The translations under genes and the position numbers were made by a program. A stretch of 64,000 nt of DNA from Humisphaera borealis (lineage in GTDB: Bacteria > Planctomycetota > Phycisphaerae > Tepidisphaerales > Tepidisphaeraceae): contig NZ_CP063458.1 in NCBI RefSeq assembly GCF_015169395.1, forward strand, positions 558,001 through 622,000, written 5' to 3'. How positions within the stretch are numbered: the stretch's first letter is position 1; every line of letters begins with the position of its first letter. Under the pieces are notes generated by a model, which was given only the letters and a program-made list of their open reading frames with translations, had not been told where the DNA came from and did not search any database. Below are positions 4,202 to 20,990 of this stretch, piece by piece.

Positions 4202-6499
<2,298 letters not shown>

Positions 6500-6858
6500 G
6501 CGGTTGGCACAAGCTTAGGGGGGACGGACATTCTTGTCTTTCGCTTGTGTCCGAAAGAAGTACTCGAACGGCGACCGGTCGAAGGCGAAGCCTGACTGGT
6601 CTCTGGCGGTGGGGCAGACATTCTTGTCTGCCTCGGACCCGGTACGCCGGGGCCGAAGCTCTTTGGAAAGGCGATAGCGGTTTCGGACGGACGAGTACAT
6701 CCGTCCGAGACAGGCAAGAATGCCTGCCCCACCAGAACAGCCCGAGACAGACAAGAATGTCCGTCCCCCAAAATCAGTGCGCCGAAACTTTTCTCCGCGT
6801 CGTTCGTCAATGTGGGGAGGTCTGTGTCTGTCTTCTTCACCTGTTGGGAGGTTTCGCC
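6500..6858. repeat. Nested palindromic repeats in the DUF255/VWA intergenic region
   Basis: Four copies of a palindromic core of the type GACAGACATTCTTGTCTGCC lie at about 6521-6540, 6614-6633, 6708-6730 and 6746-6765. They form two concentric inverted repeats: an outer pair (about 6518-6540 with 6746-6769) and an inner pair (about 6609-6637 with 6703-6733). The same core flanks the element at 50480-50671. No gene is seen in this 360-bp gap; it must also hold the promoters of two divergent genes. Confidence 0.85.
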
Positions 6859-9800
6859 ATGCGATTCCGCGCCGCTCCGATCGGTATCTCTCTTGTCGCC
6901 GCTCTTTCCCTGGTCAGTTCCGGGCAGCAACCGCCGAAGCAACCGGACGGCAAGCCCGGCGTGGCCGAACCGGCGACCCGGCCGGCATCGCTGCGGGCGC
7001 CGGCGATCCTTGATGCCGACGGTAAGCCCGTCGCCGGTGTTTCACTGGCCCGGGCCGACGTCCATGCCATCGTCCGCGGCCCGCTCGCCGAGGCGATCGT
7101 CACGCTGACCTTCAAAAACACGCAGGATCGCGTGCTGGGCGGCGAACTCACCTTCCCGCTGCCCGATGGAGCGACCATCTCCGGCTACGGGCTGGATGTG
7201 AACGGCGTGATGGTCGACGGCGTCGCCGTCGAGAAGCAGCAGGCCCGCGTCATCTACGAAACGGAGATGCGCAAGACCGTCGACCCAGGCCTGGTCGAGC
7301 ACGTCATCGGCAACAACTTCCGCACCCGGCTCTACCCGATCCCCGCCAACGGCACGCGAACGGTCAAGGTGAGCTATGTTGCCGACCTCATCCCGACCGA
7401 AGGCCGCAAAGGGGCGGCTTTGTCGCTGCCGCTGGGACTGGGCGACAAGCTCGAACAGTTCGACCTGACGATCGCCGTCGAAGGCGCGACCGAAGAGCCG
7501 ACCGTTCGCGGCGGAACGTACGCCAACAGACCGTTCCAGCAGGTGGACCGCGGCTTCTTCCTCAAGGAATCCCTTAAAGACGCCAAGGCGGTGGAGACGC
7601 TGACGATCACGCTGCCCGAAGTGCCCGCGACGAGCGTGACGGTTCAGAAACCCACCGCCGAGCCGACCACGGTTGAAGAGCTCGAACAGCGCCGCAAGGC
7701 CGGGGCCGCTGCATCGTCGCAGGCGTTTTTCGTGCTGAGCGATACGCCCGCCATGCCCCGGCTCGAACCGGCGGCGATGGCCAATCGGCGCCTGCTGGTC
7801 GTCTGGGATGCCAGCCTCAGCCGCAAGTCTGCCGACCTCTCGCGCGAGCTGGCGTTGCTCGAAAAGAGCCTCGCCAAGCTCAACTACCCGAGTTTTGATG
7901 TCGTGCTTTTGCGGAACGATCTGGAACTGATGCAACCGACGTTCGGCGGATCGAAGGAAGAGGCCGCCAAGGCGATCGCTGCACTCAAAGCGGTGACGTA
8001 CGACGGCGCGACGAACCTCGGTGTGCTGTCGTTCCCGAAGAACCTGTCGGACCTGGGGCTTGTCGCCACCAAGAAGCTTCCGCCGAACTATGATTTTGCT
8101 CTGTTCTTCACCGACGGCGTCGGCAACCTCGGCGGCGAGAAGCCGGTGCGGGTGGACATCCCGGTCTGGGCGGTCAGCTCCGATGCCTCGGCCAATCACA
8201 ACGCGTTGCGGTCGCTCTGCCAGCAGAGCGGCGGGGCGTACCTGAACCTCAACCGCCAGGCGGACGACGCCGCGATCGGCACCATCGGTCAGCCGACGTT
8301 CTCGGTCATCGCGATCGAAGCGGACGCCAAGCAGGTCGCCGATATCACCCCCGGCGTGGGCACGGCGATCGCCGGCCGCGTGACGGCGGCGGGGCGGCTG
8401 CTCTCCGACGAGGCGAAGGTGACGTTCGTCTACGGCTACGGCAAAACCGAAACCAGCCGGCGGACCTTCACCATCAAATCCGCCGACGCCAGTGACGGCT
8501 CCCTCGTCGCCCGGTTCTGGGCCCAGCAGAAGGTGAACGAACTGGCGCTCGCCGGCGACGGCAGCCGCGACGAACTGCTGGCGATCGGCAAGCAGTACAA
8601 CCTGGTCACCCCGGCGACGAGCCTGCTCGTGCTCGAAACCGTCGAGCAGTACGTGCAGTACGGCATCGTCCCGCCGAAGAACCGCCCGGAGGTTTACGCC
8701 GCGTTCACGCAGCAGATCGAGAATCGGCGTGTCGCCAAGGAGAAGACGCAGGAGGAGAAGATCGCCCACGTGCTGCAGCAGTGGAACCAGCGCGTGGCGT
8801 GGTGGGAGAAGGAGTTCAAGTACCCGAAGGACCTGAAGTACACGCCGCCGGCCGGGGCCAAAGGCGAAGTTGCCGTCGCGGCTGGTGCGGTCCCGCCGCC
8901 TGGTGCGGTTGCCCCAACAGGTGCCGATCCTGTTGCGACACCGGCCCCGGGGGCGCCGCCTATGGTTCACGCGCCCGAGCCACGTCCGGCGGCTCAGGCC
9001 GCTCAGTCGGCCCAGCCCGGTCGTCCGCCGATGAACGATCGGCCGAGAGCGGGCAGCGACCCCCACGGCAATAACGCCCCCGACTTCAACCTGGCGACGC
9101 GCGACGACGCACGACCGCACCCAACGCCCGCAGGCGAGCGCGGCGGTGAAGGCGGCGGTGCATTGTTCGGCAACGGCGGGCAGAACGGGCAGGGCCGGGC
9201 ACAACGTGAGGTCCTTCAGCGTCAAATGGCCCTTTCCAAATCCCAGAACGGCGAATCCGAGCAAGACGTCTCCGGCCGGATCGACATCAAGGCCTGGGAC
9301 CCCAAGACCCCCTATATCGCCGCGATGAAAGCCGTCGCCGCCGACAAGGCGTATGACGTCTACCTCGCCCAGCGCGAGCAGTACGCCAAGAGCCCCGCGT
9401 TCTACTTCGACTGCGCCGAACACTTGCTCCGCGTCGGCCAGCGGCAGCAGGGCATCCGCGTGCTTACCGACGTCTTGGAGATGAAGCTCGAAGACCCCCG
9501 GCTCATCCGCATCGTCGCCCATCGCCTGCAACAGTTGGACGAGCTCGACCTGGCGATCGGCCTGTTCGAGAAGGTCAGCCGGCTGCGGCCGGAAGAACCC
9601 CAGAGCTTCCGCGACCTGGCCCTGGCGCTTGCGGCCCGAGCGGATCGCGCCCTGGCCGTCCCGGCCGACAAGCAGTCCACCGGCCAGATCGCCAGCGACT
9701 ACGGCCGGGCGCTCGACCTGCTCAACAAGGTGATCACCGGCAACTGGCAGCGGTTCGAAGACATCGAGCTGATCGCGCTGATGGAGGCCAACCGCATCAG

Positions 9801-15689: not shown

Positions 15690-15814
15690 CGACTGGTCCT
15701 TTTTCGATTCGTGATGACAGCTTCGCTGACTGATCGATGCATCTCCGTTACCCCCGGGTGATGCCATGAGTTGAACGGGAATTCTCATTCCACGCGGGCC
15801 GGAAGATTTCCATT

Positions 15815-15859
15815 GCCGAACGAACCCAAGGCAGCAGTTCAAAACAGCCGAACGAACCC
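15815..15859 (-). repeat. Two copies of the GGGTTCGTTCGGC 13-mer (inverted orientation)
   Basis: The complement GCCGAACGAACCC occurs at 15815-15827 and 15847-15859, upstream of the sulfatase. The same 13-mer is clustered at 20284-20990 in the other orientation. Confidence 0.85.
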
Positions 15860-15954
15860 GGAACTGAAAGCGGGACAGGTCCAGTTATCGGTCAGGCTCC
15901 AATTGGCCCTGTCCCCTGTCCCGTTTTCTTCACTCGAACTGGACCGCGACGAAG

Positions 15955-16446
15955 CTACTTTCCGACCCGTTTCAGGAACATGAACGTGCCCTCGGAGTTG
16001 CGTTTCAGGTTGTGCGGGTGAACGAGGACGAACCCGCGTTCGGCGTCATTCTCAGACGCGCACAACAGCCCCTTGCCGCTCGGCAGGGTCAGCAGCACCG
16101 GATGGCGGCTGACGTGAACCTCTTTGTCCAGGTCCAACCCCGTCGCCGAGAAGTCGGTCGTCAGGGTCGCCAGCACCTCTGTGCCGGATCGCAACTCGTT
16201 CCCGCGGATGGTGACCTCGGCCCCTTTCTTCAGCCCGAGCGCTTCGGCCAGGTCGACCCCCTGCGCCTTATGGCTATCCAGCCGGACGACCGCGAACTGC
16301 CCGGCAAGGGCCTTCAGCCGGGTGGCTGGCTCGGGCAGCGCAGGCTCCTGACCCTGGGCGACGGCCGCGACATCGGGCTTCGGTGCGTCGGGAGCCGTGA
16401 CAGCCAAAAGACAGGTGAAAGCGACACAGTAGAGTAAGGGGTTCAT
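15955..16446 (-). CDS. Secreted protein of unknown function
   Basis: ATG 16446 is preceded by a good ribosome site (GGGAG, 6-7 bp) and starts a signal peptide (MNPLLYCVAFTCLLAVTAPDA). The 163-residue product has a Pro/Ala segment and then a compact beta-rich domain (LKALAGQFAVVRLDSHKAQGVDLAEALGLKKGAEVTIRG, VHVSRHPVLLTLPSGKGLLCA) ending in EGTFMFLKRVGK. I do not recognise the family. It follows a degenerate attC-like site on the same strand as the upstream small genes and may be the last cassette of the array, although no attC-like site is seen after it. Confidence 0.65.
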   Translation of the reverse strand: MNPLLYCVAFTCLLAVTAPDAPKPDVAAVAQGQEPALPEPATRLKALAGQFAVVRLDSHKAQGVDLAEALGLKKGAEVTIRGNELRSGTEVLATLTTDFSATGLDLDKEVHVSRHPVLLTLPSGKGLLCASENDAERGFVLVHPHNLKRNSEGTFMFLKRVGK

Positions 16447-16476
16447 CTTGACTCCCGTTAGGAGAAGAAGCGTCGG

Positions 16477-16562
16477 CTGTAGCCGCCGCGTTGACCGGCC
16501 GGGCGGGCGCTCGCGCCGCTCTCGACCCACAGCAACGATACCGCCGGCCCGGTCAGGTTATT
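16477..16562 (-). other. Degenerate attC-like site (site B)
   Basis: On the minus strand an R''-like AATAACC (16556-16562) is followed by TGACCGG-g-CCGG, a loop, and CCGGCCGGTCA, ending in an R'-like GCTACAG (16477-16483) that has lost the GTT. The stem with one unpaired G is the attC layout. It shares GAGCGGCGCGAGCG with the half-site near 17253. Confidence 0.4.
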
Positions 16563-16717
16563 CGACGAACCCGGCCAGCGGTCCGTAAACGACCCCTCGC
16601 CGGTGCAACGTGAACAAGCCGCGGCACTTGCGTTGGAGCAATCCTTTTGGCGTGTAACGGGCGACGCGGCGTTCGTCCTGCGGCATGAAGACGCCGTTCG
16701 TTACAGTGCGTGGCTAG

Positions 16718-17212
16718 TCACCCGGCGCCGTAACACCCGTAGCCTTTGAAATCCTCCTTCAACCAATGATTCCGCCCGAGGCGCAGCAGGTTTTCAAGGA
16801 ACTCGGTAAAGGTCAGGGCGATGACCTTGGCCGCATTCGGATCAGCGAACGTTTCGTGAAACACATCGTAACAGCGACCATAACCGTCTTCGTTCAAATC
16901 GACGACCACAGCATCCGAGCCGTCCGGCTTGCCGATGCCGAACCAACCGTCCAGGGGTGGTTCCAAATAGTATTCATCGCCGATCGTGGCCATGCAGACG
17001 TTTACCACTTCGGAGGGGGCCACAATCTGATACCGCGGGTAAGGGTCACCGACCTTGTCGAGAAGTCCGATGCCGCCGCACAGATCGTAGAAACGCGTTA
17101 CTTCTGTCGGAAGCTTGAAGGGTTTAGGAATGTTCGGCGCACCCGCAGGCGGAAGCAGGTGACAGAGCGGGTTTACTTTTGCGCGGCGAACAATATCTTC
17201 GATCGTCGACAT
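16718..17212 (-). CDS. SMI1/KNR4 (SUKH) family protein, cassette gene
   Basis: The 164-residue product starts at ATG 17212 (MSTIEDIVRRAKVNPLCHLLPPAGAPN). It carries the SUKH pattern: an N-terminal helix, EVTRFYDLCGGIGLLD (the 'LP.d...fy...nGg..l' block), YQIVAPSEVVNV, and WFGIGKPDGSDAVVVDLN, ending in a helix FTEFLENLLRLG. SUKH proteins are frequent immunity proteins of toxin systems and frequent integron-cassette cargo; here no toxin gene is adjacent, so the immunity role is inference. It lies between attC-like site A/half-site (17238-17380) and site B (16477-16562), oriented with the rest of the array. Confidence 0.75.
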   Translation of the reverse strand: MSTIEDIVRRAKVNPLCHLLPPAGAPNIPKPFKLPTEVTRFYDLCGGIGLLDKVGDPYPRYQIVAPSEVVNVCMATIGDEYYLEPPLDGWFGIGKPDGSDAVVVDLNEDGYGRCYDVFHETFADPNAAKVIALTFTEFLENLLRLGRNHWLKEDFKGYGCYGAG

Positions 17213-17237
17213 AGCCGTACGGCGAATAACGTCGTGC

Positions 17238-17380
17238 CGCTTAACGGCCCGGCCGCTCGCGCCGCTCCAAATCAACTGGCTGACTAACGGACAGACGTTC
17301 AGCGGCCGGGCGGGCACCGGACGTACTCTTGAACGACAAGGACCGCGACGCCCGCCCGGTCCGCTGCAATGCCTGATTAT
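17238..17380 (-). other. attC-like site A (17281-17380) plus adjoining half-site
   Basis: On the minus strand the site runs from GATAATC (17374-17380, containing the TAA stop of the upstream gene) through GCAGCGG-a-CCGGGCGGGC, a loop, and GCCCGCCCGG-CCGCTG, to the core GTTAGTC (17281-17287). The arms pair with one unpaired A, the hallmark of integron attC sites. The length is 100 bp, as in site E (18322-18421), and the two are clearly homologous through the loop. A second right-half with GTTAAGC, a perfect GTTRRRY, follows at 17238-17244. Confidence 0.75.
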
Positions 17381-17634
17381 CCCGCCCGTCGTCGGGCCGT
17401 ACAAGCAGGACACACGAAGTTCCATTCCTCAGCCAGCAGTTCCCAGCCGTCCGCCTGGGCTCGGGCGGAAACCGCGACACAACCGCGCAGGAACTCATCC
17501 TCCTCGTCGCCGAATCCGGCCAACATCTCGTCGTTCCAAGTGAGGAACGCATCGCAGTCTTTGCAGTTGAAGCCGCCCAGCAAGTTGGCGTTGGAGTGCC
17601 AGAGGTTTTCGTGGTTGTACAGCGGCTGGGCCAT
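17377..17634 (-). CDS. Small CxxC zinc-ribbon-like cassette protein
   Basis: An 85-residue cytosolic protein with two Cys pairs, CKDC near residue 25 and CPAC near residue 77, compatible with one zinc site. The sequence between them (FLTWNDEMLAGFGDEEDEFLRGCVAVSARAQADGWELLAEEWNFV) is acidic and probably helical. I do not recognise a named family. ATG 17634 lies just after attC-like site C, and its TAA stop lies inside the R''-like box of site A, as expected for an integron cassette gene. No separate promoter is visible. Confidence 0.6.
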   Translation of the reverse strand: MAQPLYNHENLWHSNANLLGGFNCKDCDAFLTWNDEMLAGFGDEEDEFLRGCVAVSARAQADGWELLAEEWNFVCPACTARRRAG

Positions 17635-17639
17635 GGCGA

Positions 17640-17681
17640 GCTAACGGACTGACATTCACTGGTGGGCCCGGCACCGTTAGC
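17640..17681 (-). other. Short attC-like site C
   Basis: GCTAACGG and CCGTTAGC form perfect inverted ends 42 bp apart, around GTGCCGGGCCCACC. The TAA stop of the gene ending at 17677 is within the first box. The site is short for an attC, so it is less certain than A and E. Confidence 0.5.
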
Positions 17682-18303
17682 GGCATTTCGTCGGTGCAGT
17701 GGTCGCCTGCGGCGGAACGCGGGCCGGCCACACGAAGATTCTGGAGGCAACGCCCTTCGGAGGCATCGCCTTCACTAGCATATTCGGCTTCAACTCATCG
17801 AGCTTCATTGGGCCACCTTCGTCCCATGTGGCGCCCACGAAGGAGGCGATGCGGATGATCCTTGTATCCTTGTCCGCTTGAACGACGGGCGACACTGGCC
17901 CGGTGCCGCTCGGTGCCTTCCTGAGATGAATTGCACCGCCGTCCACCTTGCTGATTAGACCAGTCGATGACGGTGACCATGCGTGGATGATCAATGGCGG
18001 CTTTGGCTCTTGATCCGTGGGGGCTTCCCGCCTGGCAGTTATGTCCATCCCACCCTGAAGCTTGTCCAACGCGCTCCTCTCATTGTCGAGAATCACTCGA
18101 GCCTGTTGGTCGGTCTCCACGGCGATGGGCGGCGCGTCGGGTGGCCGCCACGAGGGCTGAATCACCAGTAGCGTCCCGTCAACCTTAATGAGGGTTCCAG
18201 CCTTCAACAGACGCTGAGTTGTACGCTGCGTCGTTTGCGCAAAGGCAACAACCGCAACGAACCCGATCAACGCGGTTGCTGACAGCCAGCGGACGATTAG
18301 CAC
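17677..18303 (-). CDS. Exported cassette protein with two similar beta domains
   Basis: I place the start at GTG 18303 because AGGAG lies 7 bp upstream and a signal peptide follows at once (LIVRWLSATALIGFVAVVAFAQ). The 208-residue product has two similar halves: LIKVDGTLLVIQPSW...VETDQQARVIL...LDKLQGGMDITA and ISKVDGGAIHLRKAP...VVQADKDTRIIR...LDELKPNMLVKAM. This VDG...D..T.I....L..L..G..V plan resembles repeated OB-like DUF5666-type domains. The function is unknown. It lies between attC-like sites E and C, and its TAA stop is part of site C. Confidence 0.6.
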   Translation of the reverse strand: MLIVRWLSATALIGFVAVVAFAQTTQRTTQRLLKAGTLIKVDGTLLVIQPSWRPPDAPPIAVETDQQARVILDNERSALDKLQGGMDITARREAPTDQEPKPPLIIHAWSPSSTGLISKVDGGAIHLRKAPSGTGPVSPVVQADKDTRIIRIASFVGATWDEGGPMKLDELKPNMLVKAMPPKGVASRIFVWPARVPPQATTAPTKCR

Positions 18304-18321
18304 GAACACGCTCCTGTAGCG

Positions 18322-18421
18322 GGACAACGGACCGACGTCCAGCGGCCGGACAAGCACCGACCACTCGAATTACGACGACCGCGACGCGCGCCCGGCCGGT
18401 CCACTGCAGTGTTGGGTTAGC
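18322..18421 (-). other. attC-like site E
   Basis: On the minus strand the upstream gene's TAA is part of GCTAACCC, followed by ACCCAAC (a perfect RYYYAAC R'' box), CTGCAGTGG-a-CCGGCC, a loop, GGCCGCTGgac and GTTGTCC at 18322-18328. It is 100 bp long and homologous to site A, including GTCGCGGTC and the CCGGCCGCTG arm. Confidence 0.75.
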
Positions 18422-18884
18422 CTGCGGCCGGACCGCCGCAGTTTGCGAAGCCCGGTCCACCATGATATCCGCGACCGCGGATCAACACCGATTCAGAAGT
18501 CGACGCGACTTCGTCCACCGAATTGATCATGAACCGCGCTTTAGCCGAAGGCGGGTGCGGCAAAAACGCCTCGAAGACGTTCTCATAGATGAAGACCTCG
18601 ACCAATTCGAACGTCGTTTCGGCGTTATCGAGGACCGTCTCTAGCGAAGGATACCCGGCGTCTCGTAATGGCGAGCGTTGTTGATCGGCTACGAGGCGAT
18701 CGTCCTCCTGTAATTCACGAACACACTGCGCGTAGACGCCCGAAAGCCGTTGCACAAAGTCCGCTCTCGGGATTCGGAGTTCGTACCGACCGATGGTGCC
18801 ATCCCATCTGAATTGGTCGAAGTTCATCGCCGGCCACCAAAGAGCGTCCGGAGCAACTGGATTGTCTTCGACCTTCGCGAGCAT
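18417..18884 (-). CDS. Cassette gene of unknown function
   Basis: A 155-residue soluble protein (MLAKVEDNPVAPDALWWPAMNFDQFRWDGTIGRYELRIPRADFVQRLSGVYAQCVREL...) with no signal peptide and no family I recognise. Its acidic mid-part and aromatic-rich N-terminus do not point to an enzyme. It starts 12 bp after the core of attC-like site D and its TAA stop lies within site E, so it fills one cassette exactly. The C-terminus GRGYHGGPGFANCGGPAAG is Gly-rich and low in complexity. Confidence 0.55.
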   Translation of the reverse strand: MLAKVEDNPVAPDALWWPAMNFDQFRWDGTIGRYELRIPRADFVQRLSGVYAQCVRELQEDDRLVADQQRSPLRDAGYPSLETVLDNAETTFELVEVFIYENVFEAFLPHPPSAKARFMINSVDEVASTSESVLIRGRGYHGGPGFANCGGPAAG

Positions 18885-18895
18885 CGTTCCCCGCA

Positions 18896-18952
18896 GGCTA
18901 ACGGATCAGCATTTCACGGCCGGCCTGGCACCGTGGCAGTGCGTCGTAAGCC
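18896..18952 (-). other. attC-like site D
   Basis: A 57-bp site from GGCTTACGAC through CACGG-t-GCC / GGC-CGTG arms to GTTAGCC (18896-18902). It lies between a gene remnant and the cassette gene starting at 18884. Confidence 0.55.
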
Positions 18953-18959
18953 AGCCTCT

Positions 18960-19112
18960 TTACAAGCACTCGTACTTCTCAGTGTCGTCGACATAGAGTA
19001 GTGAAGCAATTCGCCACTCCCCGGCTTTCTGCACAAGCTGGTATTCGTAGTCTGAGACAAAGTCGTAAAGGCCCAAATGCCTAGTTCGAACGGTGGCGTC
19101 AGGACCGCGCGC
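18960..19112 (-). pseudogene. C-terminal remnant of a cassette gene
   Basis: An open frame of about 50 codons ends at TAA 18960-18962 and reads ...RTRHLGLYDFVSDYEYQ, then LVQKAGEWRIASLLYVDD, then TEKYECL. It has no start codon and is blocked by TGA at 19113-19115. The ending looks like the last strands of an NTF2/SnoaL-like domain. It is probably the tail of a cassette gene truncated by deletion; the DNA is also clearly less GC-rich than its neighbours. Confidence 0.4.
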
Positions 19113-19183
19113 TCAAAATTTACTGTTGACCAAGAGCGGGATTCATAGTTGTCGGGTTATCCCGCGGCCGGACCACCGACTAC

Positions 19184-19675
19184 TCAGATGCGCTCGGTCT
19201 TCAGGCCCAGCTCGCGGCATTGCCGCTCCGCGTCCTCGACGTTGTACTCGTAGAACCGCCCGAGGTTCCATGTCGGCGCGTCACCGACGAGCGACACCAC
19301 TGACGGCAGGGGCGTGTCCCGCAAGGTCGGGTCCAGCTTCCGGAGCGCCATCAGTTCCTTGGCGGTTGCCCGTGGCCCTGCGAACTGTACGATCAGCTCG
19401 TAGTAGCAGTGTGGGATGATCGTCTCGTGTAGGGGCACATGGCCGACGACCATCCCCGACCGGACGACCGCAAGACCTGTCCAACCGCCCTGGTCGTACC
19501 ACCGCAGGTCGTCACCCGGCCGCATCGTCGCCGCGAGATCCCTCACTTGCTGGCGCATCCCCTCGTAGACGTGCCGCCGTTCCGGGTGCGACTCGAAGGC
19601 GGGACCCGTCCACAATCCGAGCACGTCGGCTTCGGTCGTGGGCTTTAAAAGGCTCTCGGCTGCGATGCCGCTCAT
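19184..19675 (-). CDS. First cassette gene, unknown function
   Basis: A 163-residue soluble protein (MSGIAAESLLKPTTEADVLGLWTGPAFESHPERRHVYEGMRQQVRDLAATMRPGDDLRWYD...). The pattern DDLRWYDQGGWTGLAVVRSGMVVGHVPL resembles small beta-rich proteins commonly found in integron cassettes, but I cannot name a family. It begins 30 bp after the GTTAGGAT core next to the integrase remnant, which would make it the first cassette. Downstream an ACCCGAC box (19149-19156) could be the left half of an attC site whose right half is gone. Confidence 0.6.
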   Translation of the reverse strand: MSGIAAESLLKPTTEADVLGLWTGPAFESHPERRHVYEGMRQQVRDLAATMRPGDDLRWYDQGGWTGLAVVRSGMVVGHVPLHETIIPHCYYELIVQFAGPRATAKELMALRKLDPTLRDTPLPSVVSLVGDAPTWNLGRFYEYNVEDAERQCRELGLKTERI

Positions 19676-19704
19676 AGCCGCGTCCCGCGGGATAACCTTT
19701 GTTT

Positions 19705-19712
19705 ATCCTAAC
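19705..19712 (-). other. Candidate attI core (GTTAGGAT)
   Basis: GTTAGGA fits the GTTRRRY integration core except the last base. It sits between the integrase fragment (start 19838, plus strand) and the first cassette gene (start 19675, minus strand), where attI lies in mobile and chromosomal integrons. A small hairpin GGATAA/TTATCC follows. Confidence 0.4.
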
Positions 19713-19837
19713 CGCCCGGACACCCCGCGCGGATGGTCCTCTGGACAATAGCCGCTGGCGCTAGTGCCATCAACGAATTCGCAAGAGACAGCAAGAATTA
19801 TCTTGTTCAGGCCGAACAAAACTGTAACATTTGCTGC

Positions 19838-20020
19838 GTGAACCTCGTCGAACGCCTCGATCGTGCCTGTCGGCTGGCTTATCCGGCTCGCTCTACCCGC
19901 GAGCGATACATCCGCTGGGTTGAACAGTTCCGCCGGTTGCCGGTGACAAGAGCGTCGGTCGGCGATCGCCACGGGCAAGCGGGTACGCTTGCCCATGCCA
20001 CCCGGAATCCGAACGACTGA
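19838..20020 (+). pseudogene. Integron integrase (IntI-like) N-terminal fragment
   Basis: From GTG 19838 the frame reads VNLVERLDRACRLAYPARS, then TRERYIRWVEQFRRLP. It aligns with the first helices of integron integrases (pattern LD..R...R...YS.RTE.AYV.WV..FI.F), with the RxxYxxWxxxF core retained. Homology ends at about 19945. The following codons run into a palindromic repeat (19968-20003) and a stop at 20018, so the catalytic domain is missing. Orientation is opposite to the cassette array and the 5' end faces it, as in complete integrons. The match is short, so this is a recognition by pattern, not proof. Confidence 0.55.
19968..20003. repeat. Palindromic repeat that interrupts the IntI-like fragment
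   Basis: GCCACGGGCAAGC and GCTTGCCCATGCC are imperfect inverted arms around GGGTAC. It starts about 20 bp after the last integrase-like codons and could mark the truncation point. Confidence 0.6.
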
Positions 20021-20283
20021 CGACTGACGGATTTTGCTTGTCTTTAGCGGCCGTGCACCTAACATATATAGAACAATATTCGGCGTCGCCTTGGGACGGG
20101 CGGCGTCCTTCCTCCATGCGCCGGTCGGCGGGTGTGATCTGTCGGCTTTAGCGTCTACTCCATGGAGACTGCTGTCCCTGGACGATCGGTGTCGGTCGGG
20201 CCGGGGTGGTGGTGTTGGTGCTTTGAGGAGACCGACAGGCTTGGACGCGAAAGAGACGACGTGGGCAGGCTGATCGATCACTT

Positions 20284-20990
20284 GGGTTCGTTCGGCGATG
20301 TTGTCTTGGGTTCGTTCGGCCACCAAGCCGCGGGCGCAGCGTACTCTCTGCGCCCCGGGTTTGCCGGTGTGGTCTCGGGTTCGTTCGGCAGGAGGGACAT
20401 ATGTCAGGGATTGACGACGGCTCTGTCAGTGACACGGGCTTCCAGCCCGTGCGTGCGACGTTGTGGTCGATCGGTGCTCCGAACGATGACCTCCGAGCTT
20501 CTATTACATCGTCATCACTGCCAACTATTTACTGGTTGATAGGAAAAGAGATGCAGAATGAACGGCTGCTTGAAGCATCACGCACCATGCACGGGCTGGA
20601 AGCCCGTGTCACTGACGGGGTCGCTCGGCGAGCGGTTCTCGGGTTCGTTTGGCGGGGTTGCGGTGGGTTCGATTGGCGCGGGGCGGGACATCGGACGGCG
20701 GGAGCATCGCCGGGGGTCTGCGGGGTGCGGTGGGGTGAACCCCACCCTACTTTCGCCTCGGGTTCGTTCGGCGGGGTTGCGCTGGGTTCGTTCGGCAATC
20801 TAAGCGTGGCGATCCGGTGTTCGATGTTTAGTTTTCGGTGTTCGTCTTCAGTCTTGGGTTCGTTCGGCGAGGTTGCGCGAACGCTCCGCTCCGCGTCGCG
20901 GCTAACCGTTCACGGGTGTCGTGGTCGATCTGATCGGGTGTCGTGGTCGCGCTGATCGAGGGTTGTCCGACCATGCTGGGTTCGTTTGGC
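20284..20990 (+). repeat. Cluster of GGGTTCGTTCGGC 13-mers
   Basis: Exact copies lie at 20284-20296, 20308-20320, 20377-20389, 20760-20772, 20784-20796 and 20856-20868. Near copies (TTTGGC or GATTGGC) lie at 20641-20653, 20664-20676 and 20978-20990. All are in one orientation at irregular spacing, often followed by GGGGTTGCG. The spacing is unlike CRISPR. Confidence 0.88.
20425..20616. mobile_element. MITE-like element with 28-bp terminal inverted repeats
   Basis: Arms 20425-20452 and 20589-20616 are perfect complements over 28 bp; each contains the palindrome CACGGGCTTCCAGCCCGTG. The 136-bp interior codes for nothing visible. No target-site duplication is obvious. Confidence 0.7.

Follow-up and report, generated by a model that had tools for sequence, protein, structure and literature searches.

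A degenerate chromosomal integron in Humisphaera borealis and the multi-copy family of integrase-less attI platforms to which its attI belongs

The usual picture of an integron is a single platform carrying a single cassette array, and arrays that lack an integrase are mostly regarded as degraded. Several related situations have been described. Clusters of attC sites lacking integron-integrases (CALINs) are about as frequent as complete integrons, with 2961 against 2760 in one survey (PMC9024848), and can be mobilised in trans by a functional integrase, IntI (PMC12444791). Pieces of attI lie in the arrays of class 1 and class 2 integrons, the attI1 minimum being AAACAAAGTTRRRY (PMC12901181), insertion at attG sites is mentioned (PMC12901181, PMC12444791), and the IS1111-attC group comprises elements of the insertion sequence (IS) superfamily IS110 that target attC (PMC11187229). 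Here we describe positions 16490-19936 of a 64,000-nucleotide stretch of the Humisphaera borealis chromosome (positions 558,001 to 622,000 of NZ_CP063458.1; hereafter the window), which is a degenerate chromosomal integron: its attI and cassette array are kept while its integrase gene, intI, is reduced to 33 codons. The plan of intI, attI and array in opposite orientations, recognised in an initial annotation made from the sequence alone, is borne out, and the five intact minus-strand open reading frames (ORFs) and the start-less piece at 18960-19112 that it listed are all present. Sites of attC type stand between small genes of one direction, two of them full-length and two partial at E <0.01; as it has two or more attC sites and a TIGR02249 search finds no integrase gene close by, the locus also falls under the definition of a CALIN. 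With moderate confidence we favour the view that this degenerate integron is one of several integrase-less attI platforms that have multiplied and been filled by an integrase acting in trans.

A multi-copy attI family on one chromosome

The genome is a single contig of 7,189,892 bp, and the attI of the window belongs to a family with seven members there, six full-length and one partial, spread over six places. An attI sequence model (R2), built from the six full copies and recovering the same six, matches at 163374, 577686 (the window), 161806, 7162208, 4677358 and 3813589, in each case at E 1.4e-34 or better, and finds the partial seventh copy at 486459 (E 4.5e-5); after these seven there is no R2 match under E 0.047 among the best 150 of 1228 candidates in this genome. 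The copies at 162 and 163 kb stand in tandem (locus L076; L and G denote our locus and genome labels). A plain DNA search with the attI segment, since set aside, found three of the genome's own copies alone; in the family it gave 33 matching bases in G003 (E 0.0048), which R2 did not bear out.

All six full copies are alike up to a G-TTA core and unlike beyond it, where the first cassettes differ. On the attI side about 155 bp are alike in 15 of 15 pairs; on the cassette side, 500 bp hold one 19-bp match (E 0.005) among the same pairs. For L084 and both L076 copies the sides as compared were cut about 18 bp before the core, and the alignment shows the same stop. Pairwise identity ranges from 64 to 100%, or from 64 to 93% when the tandem pair is excluded; the pair itself is identical at 246 of 247 aligned positions, with one 1-base gap, and has unrelated cassettes behind GGTTATG. 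The point at which the six copies stop matching places the cassette junction of the window at GTTATCC (19690-19696), not at the GTTAGGAT core (19705-19712) at which the initial annotation had drawn the boundary. The core of the window, AAACAAAG-GTTA, resembles the published attI1 minimum (PMC12901181).

None of the copies has an intact intI adjacent to it. At most 33 intI codons are readable beside any copy, with 33 in the window, about 11 in L082 and L076 and about 4 in L084. The copies thus make up a multi-copy family of attI platforms without an integrase, whose differing cassettes all begin at the same core. Searches of the open-access literature turned up no description of such a family dispersed over one chromosome, which is weak evidence of absence.

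All seven copies lie in places with attC matches, the match behind the second tandem copy being weak (16 bits, E 0.35). These matches come from an attC covariance model (R1) trained on 11 sites, none in the window. Eight are from other genomes (six G010, one G011, one G025), and each of these adjoins an intact intI; the other three are from H. borealis itself, where one adjoins the intact intI of L001 and two adjoin the further intI stub of L011. Two-sided changes occur in 10 of the 19 pairs of the training alignment. In this genome R1 has at least 22 matches at E <=0.03 in 12 places, three of the 22 being training sites. The scans with both models scored 150 of 12292 attC candidates, 150 of 1228 attI candidates and, across the family, 108 per genome, so that the counts are lower bounds. 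Six of the 12 places hold the attI family, one is the intact integron and one the second stub, and in the other four (L077, L079, L081 and L083) no attI copy was found. These four are what might be expected if the integrase had inserted cassettes at non-classical attG sites, attI-like homology being the common context of the targets. Insertion at attG was reportedly described by Loot in 2024 (cited in PMC11023631). In the six full copies the homology extends over about 150 bp and includes the first intI codons, which is not expected of an attG target and makes this explanation very improbable.

The integrase remnant and its surrounding repeats

The plus-strand fragment beyond attI, which the initial annotation took for the start of an integron integrase, is supported as one. 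It faces away from the array, its 33 remaining codons in the correct place and direction, and lies in a plus-strand open frame (19733-20020) on the upstream side of the minus-strand genes; it is taken as 33 codons because the bases that follow belong to a dispersed repeat. Profile comparison with IntI, which had been suggested as a check, did find similarity. The fragment scores 19.7 bits against Pfam PF13495 (E 0.0011; cut-off 27, which it does not reach), with no NCBIfam match, and a profile of 33 IntI N-termini places its frame at the top of the 1126 in the window (E 2.5e-4, the next at 0.18). When the fragment was searched against 80 loci (660 kb) and five others, the matches listed at E <0.1 were all in-frame IntI starts, the best at 4e-4. 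A longer homologue stands beside the same attI in G006, a genome of another genus, where it reads LARSTREQYCRWIEQFFRFHRETDGAWRTPDRL and LARSTREQYCRWIEQFFRFHRETDGAWRTPDRLR, with its first codons in a different frame. TIGR02249 has no match near 577 kb at E 1, so no full-length integrase is encoded in cis.

As had also been claimed, the fragment stops at a palindromic repeat. The genome has eight exact copies of the 20-mer of this palindrome, of which five lie no more than 1.2 kb from the 12 attC or attI places; of 42 copies with one mismatch, one lies so near. Any binomial enrichment near the platforms is rough, as the copies are not independent and the places were not chosen beforehand. The second stub of this genome, in L011, ends 14 bases from the same palindrome. 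In G005, of the same genus, an intI stub of about 128 codons (L189 1-2200) ends by eye at an inverted GGCATG/CATGCC pair; its palindromic stretch recurs in H. borealis, and two attC matches lie on the other side of the stub. The G006 stub does not end at a palindromic repeat. Three of the four stubs of at least 30 codons that were inspected therefore end in this way (one of the three by eye), which hints at a route of integrase loss.

The stub is followed in the window by the palindromic repeat, then by a segment of 300 bp, and lastly by GGGTTCGTTCGGC repeats. Segment, palindrome, stub and attI stand in this order in the window, in the first unit of L076 (L076a), in L078, where attI is partial, and in L082, with an extra 240-bp palindromic stretch between these parts in L082 and L076a; L080 has segment and attI without the palindrome, and L084 attI alone. 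The segment is not confined to integrons: among the best 40 of 129 candidates, 6 of its 15 matches of at least 150 bases lie beside the 12 attC places and the other nine do not. Of the eight loci that cover these nine, L091 alone gave an attC match, a weak one (6197-6283, 23.2 bits, E 0.0039), about 600 bases from its segment copy; it may be a further relic.

Other repeats accompany these loci. The GGGTTCGTTCGGC repeats, at 20281-20990 and 15811-15868, are inverted on both sides of the integron and occur at many places in the genome. An inverted repeat with 38-bp arms around CACGGGCTTCCAGCCCGTG (20418-20623 of the window) is also seen behind the intact intI (L001, about 1280-1400). Between two attC sites of L083 (8097-8333) lies an imperfect palindrome of 237 bp, 74% identical to its own reverse complement, and the attI copies of L076 and L082 have similar palindromes next to them, so a mobile hairpin element may be travelling as a cassette.

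Across the 26 genomes of the family, with 108 candidates scored per genome, R2 at E 0.01 matches H. borealis and G006 alone. G006 has two matches, one beside the broken intI start with three attC matches behind it and one with no attC matches behind; it has no IntI over the cut-off in a genome that is only 80% complete. In L187 of G006 (6500-6850), a cassette-like gene is preceded by a core similar to the attI end of the intact H. borealis integrase (GGTAGTTATG) and runs into the intI stub of the second attI, so that two platforms appear by eye to be fused.

The cassette array and its attC sites

The features of the window are collected in Table 1. R1 lists seven matches there, and all five sites of the array lie in the cassette direction (minus). 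The remaining two were rejected: a plus-strand match at 17282-17383 (E 0.0085) mirrors the best site, and another, at 8531-8632 (E 0.23) and outside the array, looks like chance. The covariance-model check set in advance by the initial annotation thus returned matches in the region, R1 serving as the model. The attC layout it had described between the genes is complete at two sites (17281 and 18321), both of which have the unpaired A of the left arm, and partial at the others. The bottom-strand DNA fold of 17281-17382 clearly beats shuffled sequences (z -4.6, 0 of 200); those of 18321-18422 (z +1.1), 16490-16570 (-0.3), 18895-18952 (-0.5) and 17636-17690 (-1.1) do not. The second-type attC at 16490-16559 shares 88% identity with the intact integron's attC across 65 bp.

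Table 1. Features of the integron and its borders, in window coordinates
Feature	Position	Strand	Evidence
300-bp segment repeated beside other attI platforms	20018-20320	+	at least 15 genome matches of 150+ bases
Palindromic repeat resembling repetitive extragenic palindromic (REP) elements, contains GGCAAGCGGGTACGCTTGCC	19936-20004	.	at end of intI fragment
intI fragment, codons 1-33 of integron integrase (VNLVERLDRACRLAYPARSTRERYIRWVEQFRR)	19838-19936	+	profile searches
attI including first intI codons; core GGATAAACAAAGGTTATCC; cassette junction 19690-19696	19690-19851	-	six full-length copies diverge at core
Cassette gene 1	19184-19675	-	163 aa; no Pfam or NCBIfam match
R'' half of first attC (19154-19162) and end of IS110-type element	19095-19162	-	likeness to L084
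Cassette-gene remnant without start	18960-19112	-	ORF listing
Short attC	18895-18952	-	R1 19.6 bits, E 0.0076
Cassette gene	18417-18884	-	155 aa; no family match
Full-length attC, R' GTTGTCC	18321-18422	-	R1 53.6 bits, E 4.1e-12
Cassette gene	17677-18306	-	209 aa; no family match
Reduced attC, R'' and R' without L'' (by eye), repeat family D2	17634-17690	-	no R1 match
Cassette gene	17377-17634	-	85 aa; no family match above cut-off
Full-length attC, R'' reads TAATC	17281-17382	-	R1 90.8 bits, E 2.9e-22
Possible tail of second-type attC from lost cassette	17223-17269	-	by eye; no R1 match
Last clear cassette gene, SMI1/KNR4 (SUKH-1) domain	16718-17212	-	PF09346 27.6 bits, cut-off 25.4
Possible attC remnant after SUKH cassette, weak	16636-16719	-	R1 14.5 bits, E 0.19
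Second-type attC without recognisable R'	16490-16559	-	R1 43.6 bits, E 2.2e-9
Gene, possible last cassette	15955-16446	-	position after attC at 16490

As a control, 80 loci with an IntI relative were scanned with R1 at E 0.01 and gave 45 matches. Thirteen of these lie in L099, L100 and L102, which share their contigs with training loci. The remaining 77 loci yielded 32 matches, spread over 17 of them, and all 32 are on the strand opposite intI, as expected of attC. Rfam at its gathering thresholds matched a tRNA alone in the window, an outcome that says nothing for or against attC. A hand-made scanner for attC detected sites in L015, L016 and L017 and none in the window, missed L001 and L011, and was replaced by R1. 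At 8660-8806 of L016 a composite attC-like site of about 147 bp seems by eye to join the two attC types of G010; it scores 47.6 bits with R1 as L102 1800-1946.

With dispersed repeats as abundant as they are in this region, the 160-bp attI segment might instead be a promoter or a repeat copied along with cassettes, and the array a run of small genes separated by REP-like repeats. We hold this to be scarcely credible. In all six full copies the homology ends at the G-TTA core, with the intI start codon on the other side of the segment; the first cassettes behind it differ within this genome rather than being fixed or identical; and a model made outside the window scores attC sites within it down to E 3e-22 and places 32 of 32 matches among the 77 non-training IntI loci on the strand expected of attC.

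Decay of the array is visible at the first attC. Positions 19095-19183 of the window (89 bp) share 88% identity with L084 3635-3723; there an attC is split, by eye between R'' and L'', by an IS110-type element whose DEDD transposase exceeds the cut-offs of both PF02371 and PF01548. The element in L084 (3652-5262) and one in L081 (6745-8359, reverse complement) are 94% alike, and both lie beside attC sites. The truncated gene at 18960-19112 may be explained by an IS110-type insertion followed by deletion of the rest of the element and of the start of the gene. At the far end, the secreted-protein gene at 15955-16446 stands behind a second-type attC that has lost its R' and may be the last cassette; the R1 scan of the window has no attC behind it. 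Eight cassette-like genes from other arrays of this genome, G010 and G006 were also compared with Pfam. Five carry a domain (SMI1/KNR4, DUF4259, FRG, PARG and trypsin-like) and three do not, and two further proteins in the same scan are transposases.

Integrase supply to the platforms and comparison with known systems

The initial annotation had the integron without its integrase and frozen. The loss is real in cis; that the integron is frozen remains unproven and does not follow, because at 6.02 Mb the genome encodes an intact integron integrase, accompanied by a cassette and an attC of its own. This intI (6021297-6022262) is the one in the genome over the TIGR02249 cut-off (347 bits against 265), and its integron, L001, carries one cassette gene and the best-scoring attC on the other side of the integrase. 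At E 1 TIGR02249 has 21 matches in this genome, mostly other tyrosine recombinases, and all 14 control genomes give matches below the cut-off, so the profile was used at its cut-off alone. By group, 4 of 26 family genomes, this one included, have a match at E 1e-60 and 78 of 392 phylum genomes at E 1e-80; the order-level search returned the same 26 genomes as the family. The second stub (L011, 2105 kb; 54 codons in an open frame, attC sites at 2106184 and 2106875) is of the type of the intact integrase, being 77% identical to it over 52 residues.

The case for filling in trans starts from the tandem pair. Its two copies are nearly identical, their intI was already truncated and their cassettes differ, for which an integrase from elsewhere is the most economical account. 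Cassettes would have been put into the copies, at least into this recent pair, by an integrase encoded elsewhere, most simply that at 6.02 Mb, while the platforms themselves would be copied by recombination or transposition through flanking repeats and not by the integrase. A more far-reaching proposal, to which we give somewhat less than an even chance, is a distributed integron in which one intact integrase serves six integrase-less attI platforms, perhaps with the partial seventh, that multiply as repeats. On this view, self-contained integrons would regularly turn into satellite platforms by losing intI at palindromic repeats. A cassette gene is common to the broken platform L082 and L011 (82% identity over 301 bp); this, with the second-type attC sites common to the window and the intact integron, fits an exchange between platforms.

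Several points weigh against filling in trans, which is itself a reading of sequence. R2 matches neither L001 nor the attI of the L011 array; the intact integrase, the obvious candidate for acting on attI of the window type, has a different attI sequence. Outside the tandem pair the copies are 64-93% alike, and most of them could have received their cassettes at a time when each still possessed an intI. Since the codon at which intI breaks off varies between copies, truncation may have come independently and after the copying. Duplication of the tandem pair ending at the core by other means is conceivable. Among the five window sites that were folded, 17281-17382 alone clearly surpasses its shuffles; this agrees with decay and makes it harder to claim that all attC sites of the window work.

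Much of this would be expected of ordinary decay, in which the whole integron was duplicated together with intI, each copy gathered its cassettes in cis and intI was later lost independently, with no action in trans now. The differing lengths of the intI remnants, the moderate divergence of attI and the decayed attC sites, partial sites and IS110 remnant of the window all suit such a history. It accounts poorly for the L076 tandem pair, almost identical down to the truncated intI start and followed by different cassettes, and for the order of segment, palindrome, stub and attI shared by four of the seven copies, which, with the segment and attI of L080, suggests truncation before copying. We judge ordinary decay rather unlikely, and among the alternatives it is the one to be taken seriously.

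If platforms have indeed multiplied and been filled in trans, a genome with one integrase and six sites of a different attI type would show that docking sites can multiply independently of the integrase, and cassettes could be expressed at several places. The locus family offers a direct test of whether integrase-less arrays are alive in trans; it also supplies naturally occurring attI variants with which integrase specificity can be studied.

Among described systems, CALINs share with the window an attC array without a working intI (PMC9024848); the window differs in keeping attI and an intI stub, and in having an attI that is a multi-copy family in one chromosome. The Phycisphaerae integrons L015, L016 and L017 have the same attC types and the same plan of intI, attI and array, and L016 carries an SMI1/KNR4 cassette, as the window does, as well as one with DUF4259; they differ in their intact intI beside the array and in having no R2 match. 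The IS1111-attC group (PMC11187229) is paralleled by the IS110-type element in the attC of L084, its 94% identical relative in L081 and the remnant in the window; the insertion here lies, by eye, between R'' and L'', and the element is known as IS110-type. The delta-attI-type cassettes of class 1 and 2 mobile integrons, with a complete or partial attI in or behind the array (PMC12901181), come close in another respect, the second attI of L076 resembling an attI-ORF-attI arrangement. There the attI pieces lie within mobile arrays, whereas in H. borealis attI and the start of intI stand together at distant places of the chromosome.

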